A stretch of 9,333 nt of DNA, taken from an uncultured Desulfuromonadales bacterium. Its GTDB lineage: Bacteria; Desulfobacterota; Desulfuromonadia; Desulfuromonadales; Geopsychrobacteraceae. A program made the translations under genes and the position numbers. Below the pieces are notes generated by a model that had not been told where the DNA came from, made no database searches, and saw only the letters and a program-made list of their open reading frames with translations. Location of the stretch: NCBI GenBank assembly GCA_945787295.1, contig CALZHQ010000094.1, forward strand, positions 1 to 9,333. Direction: 5' to 3'. This document shows positions 1 to 9,333 of the stretch, piece after piece. Position 1 is the stretch's first letter. Every line of letters begins with the position of its first letter.

Positions 1-128
1 GCAGTAAACTGAATCTGTACATTATCAGACGAGCCCAGCAGGGGATTGAACGCCGACACCGCGAAGCGCGTCGAGCCCTGCTGCAACATGATCGGCAGAC
101 CGGTCGGCTGCTCGCTTTCAGCGGTCAT
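1..128 (-). CDS. 5' part of an unidentified protein gene, cut by the left edge
   Basis: Reading the minus strand from an ATG at 128-126, the frame is open to the window edge, giving 42 codons. The product begins MTAESEQPTGLPIM and continues with a mixed, globular-looking composition (LQQGSTRFAVSAFNPLLG). I do not recognise the family. The plus-strand frame covering 3-137 is also open, but its product is very rich in arginine and histidine, as expected of an antisense shadow, so I prefer the minus strand. No good Shine-Dalgarno sequence precedes the ATG. The frame stays open further upstream into the inverted repeat at 144-182, with other ATGs at 152 and 173, so the start is uncertain. If real, the gene diverges from everything else in the window, and its leader has been altered by the neighbouring cassette. 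Confidence 0.4.
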   Translation of the reverse strand, partial: MTAESEQPTGLPIMLQQGSTRFAVSAFNPLLGSSDNVQIQFT

Positions 129-143
129 ATGGAATGACAAAGG

Positions 144-704: not shown

Positions 705-1556
705 ATGTTGATTCTACCTAAAAAGACTATTTTAAACCTGATTCTGGTTGCTATGCTACTGTTCGCCACGGCAGTGTGCGCCGAGACGGTCGAGTACGAC
801 GGCCTGATCGAACCATACGTGGTTGTTAATATAGGTGCGCCGGCGGAGGGGGTTGTCGCCGGAGTCACCGTTGATCGGAGCAGTTCGGTCAAAGAGGGGC
901 AAATCCTGGTGGAGATGGAATCCTCCGTGGAGCGGGCGGCACTGGAAAAAGCCAAAGCAATGGCGACCTTTGACGGCGAAATCGGCTTGCAGAAGACTCA
1001 GCTGGCCTTTGCCAAGCGGGCGCACAGCCGGTTCAAGAGACTGGAGGCGATTGCAAACCACGATAAGGACCAGGCTGCGACCGAGATTCTCCGGGTCGGT
1101 CATCGCCTGAAGCAGGCACGTGAAAAAAGGACGCTGGCCAAATATGAGTTGAAAAAGGCACAGGCCATTCTCAATCGGTGTTCGATCAAAAGCCCCATTT
1201 CAGGGGTGGTGGTCGAGCGCTATGTTTCCCCCGGTGAATATGTTAACAGTCAGCCGCTGCTGCGGGTGGCGCAGATCGATCCGCTGCGGGTGGAGGTGAT
1301 CGTTCCGGCCCAGATTTTTGGCCGCATCATCCCCGGCATGACCGCGACCATTGTACCGGAGCTCCCGCAGTACGGCGAACAGACCGCCACTGTAACCATT
1401 GTTGATAAAGTGATCGATGCCGCCAGCAGCACCTTCGGGGTACGCCTGGAACTGCCCAATGCCGAACAGCAGATGCCGAGCGGTTTGAGGTGTTTGGTCC
1501 GGTTTGAAATCGATCAAACCGCTGATGAGGAGAATAAGGTGACAGCGCAGAACTAA
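705..1556 (+). CDS. HlyD/AcrA-family periplasmic adaptor (membrane fusion protein)
   Basis: This 283-residue protein should bridge an inner-membrane transporter and an outer-membrane channel in the periplasm. Residues 1-26 form a Sec signal peptide: KK, a hydrophobic core, then a cleavage site after V-C-A. Cys25 is preceded by V rather than G, A or S, so a lipoprotein is unlikely. Next come the first half of the lipoyl-like domain (about 41-75, with APAEGVVAGV and VKEGQILVEME), an alpha-helical hairpin rich in K, E, A and L (about 75-155), the second lipoyl half (159-190, CSIKSPISGVVVERYVSPGE), and a beta-barrel opened by RVAQIDPLRVEVIVP (187-201) and ending near 270. At 283 residues, and with a cleaved signal in place of a membrane anchor, it is closer to RND-type adaptors than to classical type I secretion HlyD. 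A GGAG at 690-693 lies 11 bases before the start. The giant gene follows in the same direction, so a role in its export is plausible but unproven. Confidence 0.92.
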   Translation: MLILPKKTILNLILVAMLLFATAVCAETVEYDGLIEPYVVVNIGAPAEGVVAGVTVDRSSSVKEGQILVEMESSVERAALEKAKAMATFDGEIGLQKTQLAFAKRAHSRFKRLEAIANHDKDQAATEILRVGHRLKQAREKRTLAKYELKKAQAILNRCSIKSPISGVVVERYVSPGEYVNSQPLLRVAQIDPLRVEVIVPAQIFGRIIPGMTATIVPELPQYGEQTATVTIVDKVIDAASSTFGVRLELPNAEQQMPSGLRCLVRFEIDQTADEENKVTAQN

Positions 1557-1661
1557 TTATGAATTCTTAATTTTTAATTTTAAATGAAGGCATTCTATCG
1601 TTTTAAGGAATAGACAGAATACATTAATTCAAAATTTATAATTCAACATTAAGAATTATAA
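1557..1661. repeat. AT-rich imperfect palindrome between the adaptor and the giant gene
   Basis: Bases 1557-1571 pair with 1648-1661 (ttatgaattcttaat against attaagaattataa, one base unpaired), and attctatc at 1592-1599 pairs with gacagaat at 1613-1620 with one mismatch. The intervening arms are loosely complementary, giving a long hairpin with a loop around 1600-1612. It begins immediately after the adaptor stop. It has no GC-rich stem or U-tract, so it is not a standard intrinsic terminator; a degenerate MITE-like element or a transcript-processing hairpin fits better. A perfect TATAAT occurs at 1637-1642, with TAGACA at 1611-1616, but the 20-base spacer is too long for a convincing sigma-70 promoter. 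I saw nothing else in the remaining bases up to 1689. Confidence 0.5.
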
Positions 1662-1689
1662 ATATGTTTGGATAAGTATTACCGTTCCT

Positions 1690-1698
1690 AAAGGGGGG
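1690..1698 (+). promoter_or_regulatory. Strong Shine-Dalgarno sequence that fixes the giant gene's start
   Basis: The purine run aaagggggg ends five bases before the ATG at 1704. An in-frame TAA at 1689-1691 lies just upstream, and no ATG, GTG or TTG occurs in frame between them. The start is therefore unambiguous, which matters because the protein begins without a recognisable signal peptide. Confidence 0.85.
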
Positions 1699-1703
1699 CA
1701 AGC

Positions 1704-4700
1704 ATGTTTAGAAAAATCAAGGAGCCGTTCAGCAAAATCAACAAACCAGCAAAAAAACAACCCGAGATTCTTCGTTATGAAGAGCTGGAACAGCGTCTGC
1801 TGTTTTCGGCCGATGTTGTGCCGGGTCTGGATAGCATTGCCGTTGAAGAGCAGGTGCTGGTTGAGGATATCACCAACAATGTTCAGGTCGAGCGCGAAGC
1901 TGCCCGGCAAACGGTTGAACAAACGGTTGCGCAAGCACGCTCTGAGCTGGTTTTGGTCAACGAGGACGTGGCCGATTATGAACAGCTGATCGCCGATCTG
2001 CAAGGCAACGATAACAACCGGATCATCGAAGTGGTGGTTCTCGAATCCGATCGCGACGGCATCGAGCAGGTCACAGAAATCCTTTCAGAGCGCTTGGATC
2101 TGGCGGCCGTGCACATCATCAGCCACGGGACCAACGGGCAGATCAACCTGGGCGACAACTGGTTGAACAGCACCACCCTGCAACAGAACAGTGATGCCGT
2201 TGCCGGTTGGGGCAACGCCCTGAGCGAGAACGGGGATATCCTCTTTTACGGCTGTAATATCGTCGCCGATGCCGACGGCCAAACCTTGCTGAATAATATT
2301 GCCGAGCTTACCGGCGCCGATGTGGCTGCCTCAGACGATGCAACCGGGCATGCGGATCGCGGCGCGGATTGGGAGCTGGAAGTCGCCGAAGGTGATATCG
2401 AAGCCGATATCGTAGTAAGTACGAAAACGCAAGACACTTGGACCAACCTGCTTGCAGTGATCGCAACCGACGATTTTTCCGCTGGCTATACCGGCGGGGG
2501 CGGCTGGACTGGCAACTGGACGGAGGTCAACGACGACGGCAGTTCGGCTGGCGGAAGGGTTAAGATTTCCGGTGGGACCCTGCAGGTTGAAAATGCGTAC
2601 GACAGCAGTGGCAACCCGGCCAACTATAAAGGGGCCTACCGGCAGGTCGACCTTTCCAGCGCCTCGGGTGCAATCCTGACTTTTGACTATCAGCGCTTTA
2701 CCCCGCAAACAGGGGGACAGGTTCTCGTCGAGGTCGGTTATGGCGGCGGTAATTGGCGAACTCTTGCGACCTACGATTTAATAGCAGCGGATGGCAGTCC
2801 GGTTTCCTCCGGCAACTTGACCATCAATGCCAGTGAAACTGCCGTCGACACCCAGATCCGTTTCAGGTCCACCGGGACGGATACCGACGCCTATATTCAG
2901 GTGGACAACGTTCAAATTACGACCAGTACTGACACCACCACCGTTGGCAACGGCACCGCCCCGGCCGATAAAAATGTCTGGGCCGGCGGCTATCACTTCA
3001 CCGTCAACTCCTTTACCCTATCGACCGACGCCGGTGCTGACACCCTGACCGACCTGACCGTCACCTTCAGCGGCACCGATGTCAATGACGTCGCGGCTAG
3101 CGGGGTGAAAATCTGGCGGGATGACTTCGGCACCCCCAATATCTGGGACGAAGGCGACACCCTGCTTGGCACCGCCACCTTCGCCGGCAACACCGCCACC
3201 TTCACCGGGCTGAGTGAAGGGATCACCACCACACCAGTCCAGTACCTGGTCACCTACGATATCGACGGTGCCGCCCCTGCCGGCAACACCCTGCAGGGGG
3301 CTGTGACATCGGTGACCACGACCAATGCCGTGGTTTACAACGACAGTGTCGATGCCACCCTGACCGTCGAAGCCGACAGTGTCCACGAAACCTCGGTCTA
3401 CAAGATGGTTTACGCCCCGGGGATTGTCGAAGAGCTCTATCTGAAAAACAGCAGTTCGCCGACCACCAATATTATGAACGGGATGAGTATTGGCAGTGTT
3501 TATGCGGCCACCCCTGGTTCGCTGCTGCTGACCTGGGACCCCGATGCCGCGGTCACCACCATCGTTGACAACAGTTCGGTGAAACAGGTGCAGATGTCCG
3601 GCCGATTGATGCACACCTCAGGTGTATCTTACGGTTCGGTGACCACGAACATCACTTTTTATGAAGATCGGGTCATCTTCGACCTGTCGCTAACCATGGA
3701 CGCCGCCCTCGTTAACGAATGGATGTTCATGACCTACGGCACCTGGGACGATGCTCTGCTGGATGAGTCCTTTGAATGGAGCAGCAACAACAGCGGCACG
3801 TTTAATACAGTTGATCCAGCGCCGAACTTCAATTCCGGCAACCAGTCTTCGCCGATCAGCTTCCAGGGACTTTTTGAACTGGGCGCGATCGATGGCCAGG
3901 TCAATGCCACGATGCAGAGCATCAGCAATTATAGCACCTCACAAATCAAGAATACCGATAATGACGGCGGTTCTGTCGACATCGCATTTCAAAAGCCGAA
4001 TCCAGTATTATTAACCACCTACCAGGCCTCGGTGCAATACAGCTTTGACAGCACCACCAGTGGTTTCAATACCACCACCGCTGAAGAACGGCAGGATGAT
4101 TTCGTCACTCCGGCGACGTTGAACTTCGGCATCGCCGGCGGTGACGGTGCGCTTACTGGTGACGGATATGTCGAGGAACGCGGCGCCTACACCCTGGATG
4201 ATAACGATGCCGACGATCATGTCCGCTTCGAGTTCCAGTCCACCACCAATCACCATTCCCCGGCCTTTGAAATCAACAACTGGAATTCAGCCGATCCTCT
4301 CTATTTGACAGTCGATGGTGCAATGAAAGTTGAGGGGCTAGATTTCCACGCCTCGGTGACAGGAACCACTCTATATGTCCAGTATCTTGGCGATATCTCA
4401 GCTAACTCAATTTTGGAGTTGAATCCGAATAATGTGCCAACCATTGGTGGTGCTGTGGCAGGGCAGGGGGTGAATGATACGGCGACCGTTTCGCCCTTCA
4501 CAGGCGTTACCATAGGTGACGCCGATTCATCTCAGATCCTGGCTGTCTCTGTCAATCTCGATACCGCAGCTAAAGGGACCTTCTCGGTTCTCAACGGTTT
4601 CAGCGACGCCGGTGGCGGAGTCTATACCTTCAGCGGAACTGCCGCCGCTGCAACAACCGCCATTCGTGGTTTGGTCTTTGATCCGGCTGACAACCGGGTT

Positions 4701-7700
4701 GCGCCTACGCTGACCGAAACGACGACGTTCACGATTTCGGTGGATGACGGCATTGCAGCACCAACAACAGACACCACCACCACCGTCATCTCCACCTCGG
4801 TCAACGATGCGCCTATATCCACCGATGACAGCTACACGGTGAATGAAGACAATACGCTCACCGTCGATTGGTGGGATATCGACTGGAGCCGTCGACAGCA
4901 ACTCACCTTGGACAACCTTGCGCAGTCCGAGACGCTGACCGACTTCCCCGTGCTGGTCATCGTCAACTCGAGCAACATCGATTACGCGCAGACCAAGGAC
5001 GATGGCTCGGATCTGCGTTTCTTCGCCGCCGATGGCACGCCACTGGCCTACGAGATCGAGCAGTGGAACGAGGGCGGCGACTCCACGGTTTGGGTCAAGG
5101 TCCCGCAGATCACAGGCACCTCCAACAGTGACAGCATCTGGATATACTACGGCAACGATGCCGCCAAATCGGGCGAAGCCGCCGGGGGAGTGTGGGACAG
5201 CAACTTTGTTGGTGTCTGGCATCTGAACGAAGAGCAGGCCGGCGTCGGTAGTACGGGCGTCTATAAGGACTCAACATCCTATAGCAACGACGGCATCGAC
5301 CGGGTCGCAGCCACAGGTCAGGAAGGTCAAATTACCGATGGTCAGGAATTCGGGCCTAACGACTGGGTCGAGATCGCACACGACGCGAGCCTCGATCTTA
5401 AGGATTCCATGACGATTTCGTTCTGGATCAAGCCGACTGCTGACTCCGGCAACTTCAACCGTGTAGTCGAGAAGGGGCTGTGGGGCTACAACAACTCCTA
5501 TTACTTCGGCGGTGGCAACGGCACCAACGACCTGACCTTCTACCTAAACGGCCAAGAAGTCTTCGACACCCCTGATAACGTGTTGACGGTCGGTGAGTGG
5601 CAGCACGCCGCTGTGAGTTACACCAGCAACGGCGATGGTACCGGCACCTCGCAGCTCTATCTGAACGGCGTCGAGATCGCATCCGGCAACTACACCAACG
5701 GGCTTGTTACCGGTAACACTGAGAGGCTCGCCATTGGGCACTCGGACCCGCTTTACGACTTTGACGGCTTCATCGACGAAGTGCAGATTTCCGATACCGA
5801 TCGCAGCGCGGACTGGATCGCTGCCCAATACCAAGCGACAAAGAACCAGTTCGGTACCGAGTTCGTACAGTTCGGCGGCGAAGAGTCGGTACCGGCGGTC
5901 GGCGGCGTGCTAAGCAATGACACCGATGTGGACGGCGATCCGCTCACCGTCACCCTGGTCGACGGCCCCGACAACGCTCAGTCCTTCACCCTGAAAAAGG
6001 ACGGCACGTTCATATATACCCCAACCGCAAACTATCATGGGACTGACACCTTTACTTACGAGGTTAGTGACGGTAACGGTGGCACTGCCCAGGCGACGGC
6101 CACGATTACCGTCAACCCTGTCAACGATGCCCCGGCGGGCGCCAACAACACGGTCAGCGCCGTTGAGGACACCGACTATGTGTTTGCCGCCGGTGACTTC
6201 GGTTTCACGGACCCCAACGACAGCCCGGCGGACAACCTCGCCAATGTGATCATCACCACCACGGTCGCCAACGGCACCTTGTATGTGGATGCCAATGGCA
6301 ACGGGATCGTCGATGGCGGTGAAGCGCTCAGCGACCTGGATACGGTCAGTGTCGCCGACATCAGCGCGGGTCGCTTGAAGTTCAAGCCCGCCGCCAACGC
6401 CAACGGCACGGGCTATGACAGTTTCACCTTCCAGGTCGTCGACGATGGCGCCGGCGCCGCCGACACCGATGCCACGCCCAACACCATGACCATCGATGTC
6501 AACGCCGTCAACGACCCTATCGGTGCGGTCAGTGATAGTGATGTTGCGACCAACACCGTTGCTGAAAACGCTACTATCGGTACCGTGGTGGGCATCACCG
6601 CCTCAGCCACCGATGTAGACACTGGTGATACCGTGAGCTACTCCCTGGATGATGACGCTGGGGGCTTATTTACTATTGATGCCGATACTGGGGTGGTGAC
6701 CGTCGCAGCAGCCCTGGACTATGAGACTGCTACCTCGCATAACATCACTGTACGGGCGACCAGCAGCGACACCAGCTTTAGCACCCAGGCCTTCACCGTC
6801 AATGTCAGCAATGTAAGCGACAGCATTTCTGGAACCGCCTTCATAGATGAAGGGGTGGCCAATATTGGGGCCGGGAAAACCATTAACGTATTGGTCAATG
6901 GTGTCAGTGTTGGTACCAGCGTCACCGCGGCAGATGGTAGTTACACCGTCGATACCGGTGTGATCAACGCCGGTGATGCGGTGGTACTCTTCATCGATAA
7001 CGATGCTACCTATAAAGGTGTGACGGTTACGATAGCTGATGGTTCAGATCTTGCGGGGGTCGATGTTTTTGCCGACCATGTCATGGTGCGCCATGAAGGG
7101 GGAGGTGCTCTGACCATTGCCGATATGGGTACTGCCTTGGGTGGTCATTCAGATACCGATATCGGTTACAGCGTGACTGCGGGGACGCTGACGGTTACTG
7201 GCGGTGAGCTCTACGTGCCTGCCGGTCACACATTTACGCCAGATGGTGATATAATTATTCAAGGTAGTAGTGGCAACATAGAGATCAACGGTACGCTTAA
7301 TGGTGGCTCGAACACCCTGACGGTTTCCGGGGACTGGGATTCCAAGAATGGAACCTTCAATTACGACACCAGCACGCTGAAGATGACCGGTGTCGGCAAG
7401 ACTTTGACTCAGGCTGCTGGTTGGGTGGACCGGTTCTACAACCTGACAATCGGCAATGGCGCCAGCATTACCCATGCCGGCGGCGTGTCCGGCATCGCCA
7501 ACGACATCACCATCGAAGATAATGCATCGCTTCTGTTTACGATCCATACCTTCCAGTCGCAGGACTCAGGTACCGGCGATCTGATCATCGGCAACAATGC
7601 GACCCTTGATATCAAGTACAAGTTCTACCACTACATCACCGATGCCAGTAATCACATCTCGACCACCGGTACGATCAAAAGCACAAACGGCACGGGGGTC

Positions 7701-9333
7701 TTCTATTACGCGGCGCTGACCGGCAACACGGCAGTTCCGGTGACCGCGCGTACCTATGATCTCGATGTTGCTGTCGCCGGTGCTTCGGATGCGGTTGCGG
7801 TTTTGAGTGGTGGAGTCAGTATGGATTTGGGGAGTCACGATCTGCTGTTGTGGGATTCCGGTCAGCTTGCCTACTACTATGGAACGCTTGATAATCCTTT
7901 TGATATTCCGATCGTATCTACCGGCACCCTGGAAATCGCTGACAAATGGGATAACGCAACCTTTACCGGCAGCTTGATCGCCCGCTCTGCCGATTACGAA
8001 TTCGGATCGGTCATTCTCCGTAATGGAAGCGGGTTGGATGCTGCGACAGGTGGTGGCGCATCTAACTGGACGGTTTTGGGCAATGTCACGCTGAACGCCG
8101 GTTCCACCTTCGATGCGGGTGGCTCGACCTGGAATATCGCCGGTGATTGGATTCGCAACGGCGGTTCTTTCACCGCCGGAACCTCGACGGTCAATCTGAC
8201 CGGTGGCGATCAGGCCATTCTCGGTTCTACAAATTTCTATAACCTGAGCAAAACCGAAGCCAGTAATGACGGCACGGATGTCACCTTGACCTTCGATAAC
8301 ACCGGTACTCAAACCGTCACGGGCACCCTGACGCTCGAGGGCCTCGATGATGACGACCGCATCAATCTGGTCTCCGACAGTCCGGGAAACCAGTGGGACC
8401 TGGTGCTTGCCGCCGGAGCGACCAAGGCGATCGATTACGTTGATGTCCAGGACTCCGATGCCTCCGGATCCGATCCCAGCCAGAAACCGATCGATGCGCC
8501 CAATGCCGTAGACAGCGGAAACAACACGGACTGGTTCGACTACGTCGCACCGACGCAGGTGAACAACATCGGCTCGATCGTCAGCGAAGGCGGCACGGAC
8601 ACGATCACGAACACGGAACTGCGCTACGACGACAGTGAGCAGCCGGCATCCAACGTGACGTACACCGTCACCGGCGGCCTGGTCAACGGCCAGTTGGAAC
8701 TGACCACGAACCCCGACGTCTCGATCACGACCTTTACCCAGGCGCAGATCGATGCCGGCCAGGTGGTCTACGTCCATGGCGGAAGTAACACCACCAGTGA
8801 CAGCTTTAACTTCAGTGTGGACGACAGCCAGGGCAACACGCTGGCCGGCCAGTCCTTCGTGCTGACGATCACCCCTGTCAACGACGCACCTGTGGTGAAT
8901 GACCAGGTCTTCGCGGTGGCGGAGAATTCCGTGAACAACACCGTGGTCGGCACCGTCGCGGCGAGCGATCCGGAACCCGGCGACACGCTGACCTATTCAA
9001 TTACTGGGGGGAACACGGGGGGCGCGTTCGCGATCGACCCGTCAAACGGCCAGATTACCGTGGCGAACAACGCAGCGCTGGACTTCGAAGTTAACCCGAG
9101 CTTTGCCCTAAGCGTTCAGGTCCAGGACGACGGCACCGGTAACCTCACCGATACCGCCTCCGTCACCGTCAACCTGTCGGACGTCAATCTGAGCTTCGCC
9201 GGGACAGCCTTCGCTGCTGACGGCGTGACGCCGCTTGGAGTAGGAACTACCGTTCGCTTGCTGGTCAATGGCTCGGCCGCGGGAACCGGAGTGACTGCAG
9301 CCGACGGCTCGTTCTCAGTAAATGCTGAGGCAA
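1704..9333 (+). CDS. Giant modular LEPR-XLL / DUF4347 / cadherin-like surface or secreted protein, C-terminus outside the window
   Basis: The frame is open for 2543 codons with no stop and runs off the right edge. Domains in order, by residue: LEPR-XLL-like motif (28-37); DUF4347 (107-238); jelly-roll-like segment (256-405); beta-rich segment (413-552); unrecognised segment (553-908); Ig-like repeat (909-1037); VCBS/cadherin-like domain split into 1038-1054 and 1400-1477 around a DUF2341 plus LamG insert; cadherin-like (1478-1605); cadherin (1606-1706); GTAF module (1707-1786); beta-helix-like repeats (1787-2278); CSPG-type repeat (2283-2396); second cadherin (2397-2495) and GTAF module (2496 onward). 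VNDAP or VNDP marks four domain boundaries. The composition is rich in Asp, Thr, Gly, Asn and Val, poor in Lys, with exactly one Cys (184). It is probably a calcium-stabilised extracellular adhesin or matrix protein. Its substrate is unknown. Any RTX or other C-terminal secretion signal would be beyond the window. Confidence 0.95.
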   Translation, partial: MFRKIKEPFSKINKPAKKQPEILRYEELEQRLLFSADVVPGLDSIAVEEQVLVEDITNNVQVEREAARQTVEQTVAQARSELVLVNEDVADYEQLIADLQGNDNNRIIEVVVLESDRDGIEQVTEILSERLDLAAVHIISHGTNGQINLGDNWLNSTTLQQNSDAVAGWGNALSENGDILFYGCNIVADADGQTLLNNIAELTGADVAASDDATGHADRGADWELEVAEGDIEADIVVSTKTQDTWTNLLAVIATDDFSAGYTGGGGWTGNWTEVNDDGSSAGGRVKISGGTLQVENAYDSSGNPANYKGAYRQVDLSSASGAILTFDYQRFTPQTGGQVLVEVGYGGGNWRTLATYDLIAADGSPVSSGNLTINASETAVDTQIRFRSTGTDTDAYIQVDNVQITTSTDTTTVGNGTAPADKNVWAGGYHFTVNSFTLSTDAGADTLTDLTVTFSGTDVNDVAASGVKIWRDDFGTPNIWDEGDTLLGTATFAGNTATFTGLSEGITTTPVQYLVTYDIDGAAPAGNTLQGAVTSVTTTNAVVYNDSVDATLTVEADSVHETSVYKMVYAPGIVEELYLKNSSSPTTNIMNGMSIGSVYAATPGSLLLTWDPDAAVTTIVDNSSVKQVQMSGRLMHTSGVSYGSVTTNITFYEDRVIFDLSLTMDAALVNEWMFMTYGTWDDALLDESFEWSSNNSGTFNTVDPAPNFNSGNQSSPISFQGLFELGAIDGQVNATMQSISNYSTSQIKNTDNDGGSVDIAFQKPNPVLLTTYQASVQYSFDSTTSGFNTTTAEERQDDFVTPATLNFGIAGGDGALTGDGYVEERGAYTLDDNDADDHVRFEFQSTTNHHSPAFEINNWNSADPLYLTVDGAMKVEGLDFHASVTGTTLYVQYLGDISANSILELNPNNVPTIGGAVAGQGVNDTATVSPFTGVTIGDADSSQILAVSVNLDTAAKGTFSVLNGFSDAGGGVYTFSGTAAAATTAIRGLVFDPADNRVAPTLTETTTFTISVDDGIAAPTTDTTTTVISTSVNDAPISTDDSYTVNEDNTLTVDWWDIDWSRRQQLTLDNLAQSETLTDFPVLVIVNSSNIDYAQTKDDGSDLRFFAADGTPLAYEIEQWNEGGDSTVWVKVPQITGTSNSDSIWIYYGNDAAKSGEAAGGVWDSNFVGVWHLNEEQAGVGSTGVYKDSTSYSNDGIDRVAATGQEGQITDGQEFGPNDWVEIAHDASLDLKDSMTISFWIKPTADSGNFNRVVEKGLWGYNNSYYFGGGNGTNDLTFYLNGQEVFDTPDNVLTVGEWQHAAVSYTSNGDGTGTSQLYLNGVEIASGNYTNGLVTGNTERLAIGHSDPLYDFDGFIDEVQISDTDRSADWIAAQYQATKNQFGTEFVQFGGEESVPAVGGVLSNDTDVDGDPLTVTLVDGPDNAQSFTLKKDGTFIYTPTANYHGTDTFTYEVSDGNGGTAQATATITVNPVNDAPAGANNTVSAVEDTDYVFAAGDFGFTDPNDSPADNLANVIITTTVANGTLYVDANGNGIVDGGEALSDLDTVSVADISAGRLKFKPAANANGTGYDSFTFQVVDDGAGAADTDATPNTMTIDVNAVNDPIGAVSDSDVATNTVAENATIGTVVGITASATDVDTGDTVSYSLDDDAGGLFTIDADTGVVTVAAALDYETATSHNITVRATSSDTSFSTQAFTVNVSNVSDSISGTAFIDEGVANIGAGKTINVLVNGVSVGTSVTAADGSYTVDTGVINAGDAVVLFIDNDATYKGVTVTIADGSDLAGVDVFADHVMVRHEGGGALTIADMGTALGGHSDTDIGYSVTAGTLTVTGGELYVPAGHTFTPDGDIIIQGSSGNIEINGTLNGGSNTLTVSGDWDSKNGTFNYDTSTLKMTGVGKTLTQAAGWVDRFYNLTIGNGASITHAGGVSGIANDITIEDNASLLFTIHTFQSQDSGTGDLIIGNNATLDIKYKFYHYITDASNHISTTGTIKSTNGTGVFYYAALTGNTAVPVTARTYDLDVAVAGASDAVAVLSGGVSMDLGSHDLLLWDSGQLAYYYGTLDNPFDIPIVSTGTLEIADKWDNATFTGSLIARSADYEFGSVILRNGSGLDAATGGGASNWTVLGNVTLNAGSTFDAGGSTWNIAGDWIRNGGSFTAGTSTVNLTGGDQAILGSTNFYNLSKTEASNDGTDVTLTFDNTGTQTVTGTLTLEGLDDDDRINLVSDSPGNQWDLVLAAGATKAIDYVDVQDSDASGSDPSQKPIDAPNAVDSGNNTDWFDYVAPTQVNNIGSIVSEGGTDTITNTELRYDDSEQPASNVTYTVTGGLVNGQLELTTNPDVSITTFTQAQIDAGQVVYVHGGSNTTSDSFNFSVDDSQGNTLAGQSFVLTITPVNDAPVVNDQVFAVAENSVNNTVVGTVAASDPEPGDTLTYSITGGNTGGAFAIDPSNGQITVANNAALDFEVNPSFALSVQVQDDGTGNLTDTASVTVNLSDVNLSFAGTAFAADGVTPLGVGTTVRLLVNGSAAGTGVTAADGSFSVNAEA
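1785..1814 (+). other. LEPR-XLL-like N-terminal motif of the giant protein
   Basis: Residues 28-37 read LEQRLLFSAD and are preceded by a basic stretch (KINKPAKKQPEILRYEE). This resembles the short LEPR-XLL N-terminal domain of very large repeat proteins, with Q replacing the usual P. No Sec-type hydrophobic core follows. The motif may be a targeting or processing signal, but its function is not established. Confidence 0.8.
2022..2417 (+). other. DUF4347 domain, caspase-like (clan CD) candidate
   Basis: Residues 107-238 show the DUF4347 pattern: a beta strand IIEVVVLES, then AAVHIISHGTNGQINLG with H141-G142, then GDILFYGCNIVADADG with G183-C184, and a closing stretch GADVAASDDATGHAD followed by GADWELEV. 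A His-Gly and a later Gly-Cys, each after a hydrophobic strand and 43 residues apart, is the arrangement seen in clan CD peptidases and CHAT domains. Peptidase activity is an inference. Confidence 0.85.
2469..2918 (+). other. Jelly-roll-like beta domain
   Basis: Residues 256-405 begin DDFSAGYTGGGGWTGNW and end DAYIQVDNVQITT, with a central VDLSSASGAILTFDY. This is the layout of MAM- or CBM-like beta sandwiches that follow DUF4347 in other giant proteins. The family is assigned by appearance only; ligand unknown. Confidence 0.5.
2940..4427 (+). other. Two beta-rich segments, the second of unrecognised family
   Basis: Residues 413-552 look like an Ig-like export-protein module (FTVNSFTLSTDAGADTLTDL, then IWRDDFGTPN, then QYLVTYDIDG). 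Residues 553-908 do not resemble any domain I know. They are less Thr-rich and contain aromatic, globular-looking stretches such as VYKMVYAPGIVEELYLKN and NEWMFMTYGTWDD. They could be a ligand-binding or enzymatic domain, but no catalytic motif is visible. Confidence 0.4.
4428..4814 (+). other. Ig-like repeat ending in VNDAP
   Basis: Residues 909-1037 contain the pattern FTGVTIGDADSSQILAVSV, YTFSGTAAAATTAIRGLVF and TTTFTISVDDG, closing with VNDAP. This is a common stalk repeat of large bacterial surface proteins. I read it as a spacer domain. Confidence 0.6.
4866..5900 (+). other. DUF2341 plus LamG (concanavalin-like) insert
   Basis: Residues 1057-1152 match DUF2341: WDIDWSRRQQLTLDNL, TDFPVLVIVNSSNIDYA, DLRFFAADGTPLAYEIEQW, VWVKVPQI and SIWIYYGN. 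Residues 1164-1365 form a LamG-type lectin fold: FVGVWHLNE, DWVEIAHDASLDL, MTISFWIKP, EWQHAAVSYT, SQLYLNGVEI and DGFIDEVQISDT. These two domains often occur as a pair and are thought to bind carbohydrate. Here the pair sits inside the next beta domain and not beside it. Confidence 0.8.
5901..6518 (+). other. VCBS/cadherin-like domain remainder plus one further cadherin-like domain
   Basis: Residues 1400-1477 contain GGVLSNDTDVDGDPLTVTLV, DGTFIYTPTANYHGTDTFTY and a closing VNDAP, a canonical VCBS or cadherin-like domain lacking its first strand. Residues 1478-1605 form another (VSAVEDTDYVF, GTLYVDANGNGIVDGGE, FKPAANANGTGYDSFTF, then VNDP). The Asp-rich loops are probable calcium sites. Confidence 0.75.
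6519..7061 (+). repeat. Copy 1 of the cadherin plus GTAF module
   Basis: Residues 1606-1706 are a cadherin repeat with VAEN, ATDVDTGD, FTIDADTGVVTV and LDYE calcium-binding marks. It is followed by a small beta module, SGTAFIDEG, INVLVNGVSVGTSVTAADGS. The same pair recurs at 8892-9333 about 790 residues later. The small module may be a transthyretin- or carboxypeptidase-regulatory-like fold, by analogy only. Confidence 0.75.
7062..8537 (+). other. Beta-helix-like repeat region
   Basis: Residues 1787-2278 carry many short strand repeats (LTVTGGELYVPAG, NIEINGTLNGGSNTLTV, VTLNAGSTFDAGGSTW). A longer unit occurs twice: GDW, then NGTF or NGGSF, then a Thr-Gly step, then FYNL, starting at G1876 and G2147. 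It closes with YVDVQDSDASG and SGNNTDWF (2245-2278). This pattern suggests a right-handed beta-helix, which would act as a rigid stalk. Confidence 0.6.
8550..8891 (+). other. CSPG-type (Cadherin_3-like) repeat
   Basis: Residues 2283-2396 show ITNTELRYDD, VTYTVTGGLVNGQLEL, FTQAQIDAGQVVYVHGGSNT and DSFNFSVDDSQGN, ending VNDAP. The order ITNTELRYDD, FTQAQIDAG, YVHGGS is the hallmark of chondroitin-sulfate-proteoglycan-type repeats found in bacterial surface proteins. Confidence 0.8.
8892..9333 (+). repeat. Copy 2 of the cadherin plus GTAF module, cut by the right edge
   Basis: Residues 2397-2495 form a cadherin repeat (VAEN, AASDPEPGDTLTY, FAIDPSNGQITV, LDFE). It is followed by FAGTAFAADG, VRLLVNGSAAGTGVTAADGS, the same order as at 6519-7061. 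The LD[YF]E marks are 788 residues apart and the GTAF marks 790. The copies are clearly related but well diverged, so the duplication is old or the modules were acquired separately. Confidence 0.75.

Follow-up and report, generated by a model that had tools for sequence, protein, structure and literature searches.

Why does a giant surface protein that otherwise almost dispenses with cysteine retain a single one, and what could this residue do? The question is raised by the first 9,333 nucleotides of contig CALZHQ010000094.1 from an uncultured Desulfuromonadales bacterium (the whole stretch analysed, here called the window), which starts inside the gene of a SecA-like ATPase and ends inside the gene of the giant protein. 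The cysteine, C184, lies in the DUF4347 domain of that protein. From what was computed here, namely the single cysteine, a conserved dyad, a predicted fold, an alignment to the dyad of the Pseudomonas aeruginosa protein Tce1, an operon, and the co-occurrence of a LEPR motif with an export module, we think that DUF4347 is probably an active caspase-fold cysteine peptidase with H141 and C184 as putative dyad. In the mechanism that we favour, the LEPR giant would be exported by a module of SecA-like, M50-HlyD and HlyD proteins, with DUF4347 as the first recognised domain of the nearly cysteine-free chain, behind the LEPR motif. After export, the domain would cleave the giant's own chain near the domain edge, at best guess after Leu250, and this cleavage would split the segment bearing LEPR and protease from the repeats. 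The whole account, an exported LEPR giant with a built-in DUF4347 peptidase that cuts its own chain, is in our view a serious possibility that falls slightly short of probable.

The giant carries the following features, with residues numbered from its start:
1704..9332, plus strand: giant LEPR-DUF4347 surface protein, 2543 residues, continuing past the window end
1779..1838, plus strand: LEPR-XLL motif, residues 26-45, including LEQRLLFSAD (NCBIfam NF012209, 18.7 bits, cut-off 17)
1947..2453, plus strand: DUF4347 domain, residues 82-250, predicted caspase fold (Pfam PF14252, 9.2e-53; 178.8 bits, cut-off 24.6)
2124..2129, plus strand: H141-G142 (CACGGG), putative catalytic His, from conservation and alignment to Tce1 His186
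2253..2255, plus strand: C184 (codon TGT), putative catalytic Cys and sole Cys of the sequenced part, from conservation and alignment to Tce1 Cys240
2316..2381, plus strand: conserved stretch, residues 205-226 (ADVAAS...TG...DWELE), with G215 and W223 invariant
2451..2456, plus strand: Leu250-Ala251, candidate self-cleavage point from border conservation, a prediction only

Downstream of DUF4347, Pfam recognises cadherin-like, immunoglobulin-like, LamG and DUF2341 domains.

The single cysteine

Translation of the frame 1704-9332 bears out the statement of an earlier note that C184 is the only cysteine in 2543 residues, a count that refers to a partial protein, and likewise places H141-G142 at 2124-2129. 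That note had also read the protein as excluding cysteine while keeping one at a functional position. The first half of this reading loses its special meaning, as the scarcity is ordinary for the family, whereas the placement of C184 is beyond chance. The cysteine count in homologues that the note had proposed was carried out on 121 proteins, i.e. the window protein and the best 120 of 460 homologues. Outside the DUF4347 domain, these contain 193 cysteines in 286,961 residues, so that about 1.7 would be expected at the length of the window protein, and one or none in about half of cases. None of the 121 proteins is free of cysteine. Exactly one is found in 34 of them, and in all 34 it stands in the C184 column; in 41 proteins every cysteine present is a C184-column cysteine. 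The idea that low cysteine content is a peculiarity of the window protein was rejected, since it is a common trait both of this set and of 40 open frames with a LEPR motif.

These 40 LEPR frames were picked by their LEPR match and their fit within one stretch rather than at random; not all lie beside the export module, and some run off the stretch or contig. Residues were counted from LEPR onward, and the catalytic cysteine was called by the pattern [YF][GAST]C inside DUF4347. The domain is present in 27 frames, all 27 with the catalytic cysteine, which accounts for 28 of their 58 cysteines in 93,039 residues and is the only kind of cysteine in 11 frames. The 13 frames without DUF4347 hold 18 cysteines in 47,779 residues, and eight have none. 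The rates of non-catalytic cysteine are thus alike with and without the domain, 0.032% (30/93,039) versus 0.038% (18/47,779), suggesting that cysteine is excluded generally and retained where the dyad needs one.

Conservation of the dyad and distribution of DUF4347

Loci L001-L080 show the C184-column cysteine in 86 of 86 copies, but they cannot test its conservation, because one of the six peptide patterns used to find them contained the word YGCN. Loci L081-L164 were instead found by Pfam-profile searches and comprise 86 copies in 83 loci, most of them among the higher-scoring matches in the respective genome, with weak copies under-represented. Here the conservation that the earlier note had asked about holds for Cys in 85 and for His in 80 copies, with Gly142 in 83 and Gly183 in 75. 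The copies lacking the His are found in L100, L101, L145, L161, L097 and L103 (gapped there), of which L101 also lacks the Cys, and they are possibly inactive. Of 133 domain copies in the 121 proteins, 129 have the His, a further copy being gapped at this position, and 130 have the Cys. In an alignment of 119 sequences, G215 and W223 are invariant, and the positions conserved to at least 90% include H141, G142, G183, C184, A209, S210, T214, L225 and E226.

The first DUF4347 copy starts at a median residue of 101 and at most at 173 (121 proteins, median length 2498 residues). Tandem copies occur in P0003, P0004, P0006, P0008 and P0011 and in L083, and two copies per protein were counted in 12 of the 121 proteins by one search and in 13 by another. 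At the genome level, the domain was detected in 95 of 398 Pseudomonadota, 43 of 146 Cyanobacteria and 13 of 247 Desulfobacterota, these groups being labelled after the organisms of their source loci L033, L017 and L004, respectively; it was found in none of 14 control genomes.

Predicted fold and links to peptidases

An AlphaFold model of residues 77-262 has a mean predicted local distance difference test score of 95.4 and a predicted template modelling score of 0.90; residues 1-75 are modelled with low confidence. Strands 133-139 and 173-182 of the model precede His-Gly and Gly-Cys, in line with the hydrophobic strands that had been noted before each pair. Structure prediction and fold search gave the caspase/haemoglobinase arrangement of clan CD, in which His-Gly follows one core strand and the Cys the next, both residues being conserved. 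H141 and C184 should also lie within reach of each other, judging from the alignment to Tce1. Tce1 (PDB 9qpe chain G) is matched by a profile built from the N-terminal alignment, with E 0.0015 for the chain and 0.013 for the stretch, and the printed alignment sets H141 against chain position 77 and C184 against position 131. Since the chain begins at residue 110, the two positions correspond to His186 and Cys240, the putative dyad of Tce1 according to the main text of PMC13323088. The same main text lists the TcdB protease domain among the top structural matches of Tce1 and does not use the name DUF4347, which the available text of PMC8262886 applies to PA0256, the same protein. Its toxicity in Escherichia coli is disputed, with a 2-log drop in the available text of the 2021 study (PMC8262886) versus no marked effect in that of 2026 (PMC13323088). 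The caspase-like reading of the earlier note is supported by the predicted fold, the conserved dyad and the alignment to the Tce1 dyad.

A link to the C80 peptidases was also seen. When 119 N-terminal sequences were scanned singly, 47 matched Pfam Peptidase_C80 at E<=1 (best 4.4e-4; next family 6), and 43 of 115 domain copies gave weak matches at E<=0.1 (best 2.5e-4; next family 6/115). The window's own domain has no match to the C80 profile at E<=1, and membership was not assigned to it. No C80 structure is among the matches listed (best 50 per structure search), an absence that we do not count as evidence. Matches to DeNovoTIM are repeats of one weak 28-residue match and were treated as noise. 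The DUF4347 profile is also matched by residues 244-459 of the ECT2L chain (PDB 11xu; E 3.5e-4 for the chain), whose dyad positions are apparently not His/Cys in the printed alignment, so that ECT2L is possibly a eukaryotic pseudo-protease.

The LEPR motif and the export module

Upstream of the giant gene the window holds:
3..137, plus strand: C-terminal tail of a SecA-like ATPase, 44 residues and stop (translation; tblastn match)
705..1556, plus strand: HlyD-type membrane-fusion protein, 283 residues (Pfam HlyD_D23, 5e-19)

The tail is 81% identical (tblastn) to residues 628-670 of the 670-residue SecA-like protein of L001. The family to which it belongs has SecA_DEAD/P-loop_SecA matches in L004, L006 and L008, and NCBIfam SecA models match the L001 and L008 proteins with scores below the cut-offs. 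Close relatives of the HlyD protein adjoin the giant gene in L001, L003 and L004 (404-412 bits) and in L006 (263.5 bits). In these four loci, the genes upstream of the giant DUF4347 gene encode a GAF-HlyD protein, an M50-HlyD protein (714-736 residues), a SecA-like ATPase (670 residues) and HlyD; L008 shares the GAF-HlyD, M50-HlyD and SecA-like genes, and L002 has some of the four. No module genes were found in the DNA examined of L005, L007 and L010, which are close to the window protein. The M50-type proteins show HExxH and an NPxxxxDG stretch. With its SecA-like tail and its HlyD counterpart, the window thus holds one end of this operon, and the close pairing of secondary SecA and HlyD genes that marks the module is present with the SecA-like gene represented by its tail only; the M50 and GAF-HlyD genes fall outside the window and are found in L001, L003, L004, L006 and L008. 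Type I secretion, first suggested by the HlyD gene, was set aside as the less probable route: the window has no ABC transporter gene, and the genes next to the nearest relatives' giants encode SecA-like, M50-HlyD and HlyD proteins instead.

The assignment of LEPR-XLL near the N-terminus of the window giant is above the cut-off by a marginal score. The model spans just 24 positions and overlooks weak motifs, and at E<=1 it matches in 7 of 14 control genomes, in one above the cut-off, for which reason only matches at E<=0.01 and E<=0.001 were counted. In the 398 Pseudomonadota genomes, M50-HlyD occurs in 90, DUF4347 in 95 and both in 75 (Fisher odds ratio 72, p 1e-46), and at least 47 of 150 DUF4347 places listed, from 39 genomes, have an M50-HlyD gene within 40 kilobases on the same contig, a lower bound, as only two M50-HlyD candidates were scored per genome. 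Of the 41 such genomes with the LEPR motif at E<=0.001, 40 also have M50-HlyD; when LEPR matches at E<=0.01 in frames of at least 300 residues are taken, 51 of 52 do. In the other direction, a LEPR match of this latter kind is absent from 39 of the 90 genomes that have M50-HlyD. None of these Pseudomonadota figures is corrected for kinship. In the 146 Cyanobacteria, M50-HlyD matches are few and weaker (14 genomes, 10 of which have DUF4347, compared with 43 of 146 overall, which amounts to a degree of co-occurrence), but no adjacent DUF4347/M50-HlyD pair was seen among the places listed, which were compared by eye on draft contigs.

Giants beside modules often start with LEPR, whether DUF4347 is present or not, several being cut at their start by the stretch; exceptions are L218, with a signal-peptide-like start, and L220, without LEPR. 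From these patterns in the sequences, it is likely that LEPR giants are the cargo of the SecA-like/M50-HlyD/HlyD module. The literature that carries the name of the motif gives no function for it in its available text. A role of LEPR as substrate of DUF4347 was considered and is weakened by LEPR giants without DUF4347 (L225-L229, L212 and the 13 LEPR frames) and by cyanobacterial DUF4347 proteins that, among the rows listed, have no LEPR-pattern match in the stretch examined; the motif fits the export module better. In L212, the LEPR giant at 1533-7856, which adjoins an M50-HlyD gene, has in place of DUF4347 a stretch with the motif EEYGHHLDH, which reads as metallopeptidase-like, and no cysteine from its likely start. 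LEPR motifs are further found in open frames of 11,649 to 19,427 residues (G314:C115:112865-112924; G267, G259, G396, G524). As a speculation that we ourselves consider somewhat unlikely, LEPR would be the export signal of a dedicated envelope-spanning route, and its cargo, giants almost devoid of cysteine in frames of up to 19,427 residues, would often have, directly after the signal, a caspase-fold protease that cuts the signal part off after arrival. The proposed parts of this route are a fusion of an M50-type intramembrane protease with HlyD, additional adaptors of HlyD type and, for one branch, a SecA-like ATPase.

Self-processing and its alternatives

We favour self-processing because the domain is embedded close to the beginning of a long chain, because related C80 domains cleave themselves (PMC12445089, in its available text), and because the domain edge ends in a conserved aromatic-xxx-Leu-Ala. 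At this border, 220 non-redundant copies have the aromatic residue in 217 cases, Leu250 in 204 and Ala251 in 111, and conservation drops afterwards. Taken with the C80 analogy, this makes it quite possible, if not quite probable, that DUF4347 acts on its own chain. Several observations weigh against our account, the first of which is that the same border pattern would arise if packing of the domain simply ended at Leu250, so that cleavage there is a prediction only, and a doubtful one. In addition, a published LEPR giant ends, as far as its available description goes, in RTX domains, pointing to another route, and Tce1, the closest solved relative, is described in its main text as a stand-alone type VI cargo and proposed cysteine protease effector. 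The last point would suit an active peptidase that acts in trans on surface proteins of neighbours or of the own cell, as a displayed effector domain. According to the same source, the partner Tce2 impairs yeast growth, which is relieved by Cys mutation, and the cyanobacterial DUF4347 places listed without adjacent M50-HlyD indicate that the domain is not bound to one export route. Action in trans is nevertheless rather unlikely in our view, as the domain sits near the N-terminus, close to LEPR where this is present, and not at a displayed tip, and as the Leu-Ala border is conserved.

Catalysis itself is called into question by the six of 86 copies without His or Cys and by ECT2L, which matches the profile without His/Cys at the dyad positions of the printed alignment. 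Both would suit a caspase-fold module that serves in binding or folding, with His and Cys in structural roles. We think this unlikely, given that the Cys is kept in 27 of 27 LEPR-DUF4347 giants that otherwise nearly exclude it and that the dyad aligns with the proposed catalytic dyad of Tce1. A self-transpeptidase, in which a C184 thioester would tie the giant to a cell-surface amine after the manner of the caspase-fold glycosylphosphatidylinositol transamidase, appears very improbable: no acceptor partner was seen, the structural alignment with the transamidase has a root-mean-square deviation of 13.1, and five giants of Desulfobacterota and Nitrospirota type already end in a membrane-like segment. 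These are the giants of L004, L006, L007, L008 and L010, in which, judged by eye, the segment is followed by a charged tail at the C-terminal end. Cleavage of the own chain is the reading that we prefer.

Neighbouring genes

Between the SecA-like tail and the HlyD gene of the window lies an S23-type (23S_rRNA_IVP) gene at 194-559, flanked by 40-nucleotide inverted repeats (144-183 and 617-656, 88% complementary); gene and repeats together look like a small inserted element. The corresponding operon of L004 has two S23-type genes. Directly 3' of the giant gene, sensor-kinase and GGDEF/EAL genes are found in L006 (16978-19971), L008 (12071-16764) and L010 (16968-20105), which suggests cyclic di-GMP or two-component control.

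Meaning and comparison with known systems

Already published, as far as the available texts go, are the interpretation of one DUF4347 protein, Tce1, as a protease (2026) and the module itself (2015). Neither DUF4347 of giant proteins as a protease nor LEPR giants as cargo of the module was found in the available text of the open-licence literature searched, which is not proof of absence. DUF4347 gains a proposed, testable function, and the module of 2015 a proposed cargo and a proposed export signal. If the account is true, the giant surface proteins of bacteria include a large class with its own exporter and often a built-in protease.

The DUF4347 domain of the window resembles Tce1 in its fold and in the dyad aligned by sequence profile. 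The main text of its description presents Tce1 (PA0256) as a stand-alone type VI cargo of 310 residues whose N-terminal domain is predicted to be a beta-sandwich, whereas the window domain makes up the N-terminal portion of a giant that also has a LEPR motif and cadherin-like repeats. Clan CD comprises eight families in the available text of PMC12445089, and DUF4347 is not among these. The C80 members of this clan, domains with which MARTX and large clostridial toxins cleave themselves, are likewise built into a long chain. To the CHAT peptidases of SAVED-CHAT and Craspase, which belong to intracellular systems, identity is 13-15%.

The export module recalls the SecA_DEAD/Peptidase_M50/HlyD/GAF module of Kamneva et al. 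2015 (PMC4452313), whose broader role is called "completely unknown" in the available text: the same four kinds of protein occur in one operon beside the giant genes of the window's relatives. No cargo is named in its available text, and its main text mentions neither DUF4347 nor cadherin nor a giant protein; unlike that module, several Pseudomonadota loci have no SecA-like gene in the stretch examined. With the LEPR-XLL proteins (NF012209) the window giant shares its motif, and a difference from the available literature on these proteins is that the motif here tracks an M50-HlyD protein, as seen in 40 of 41 genomes.
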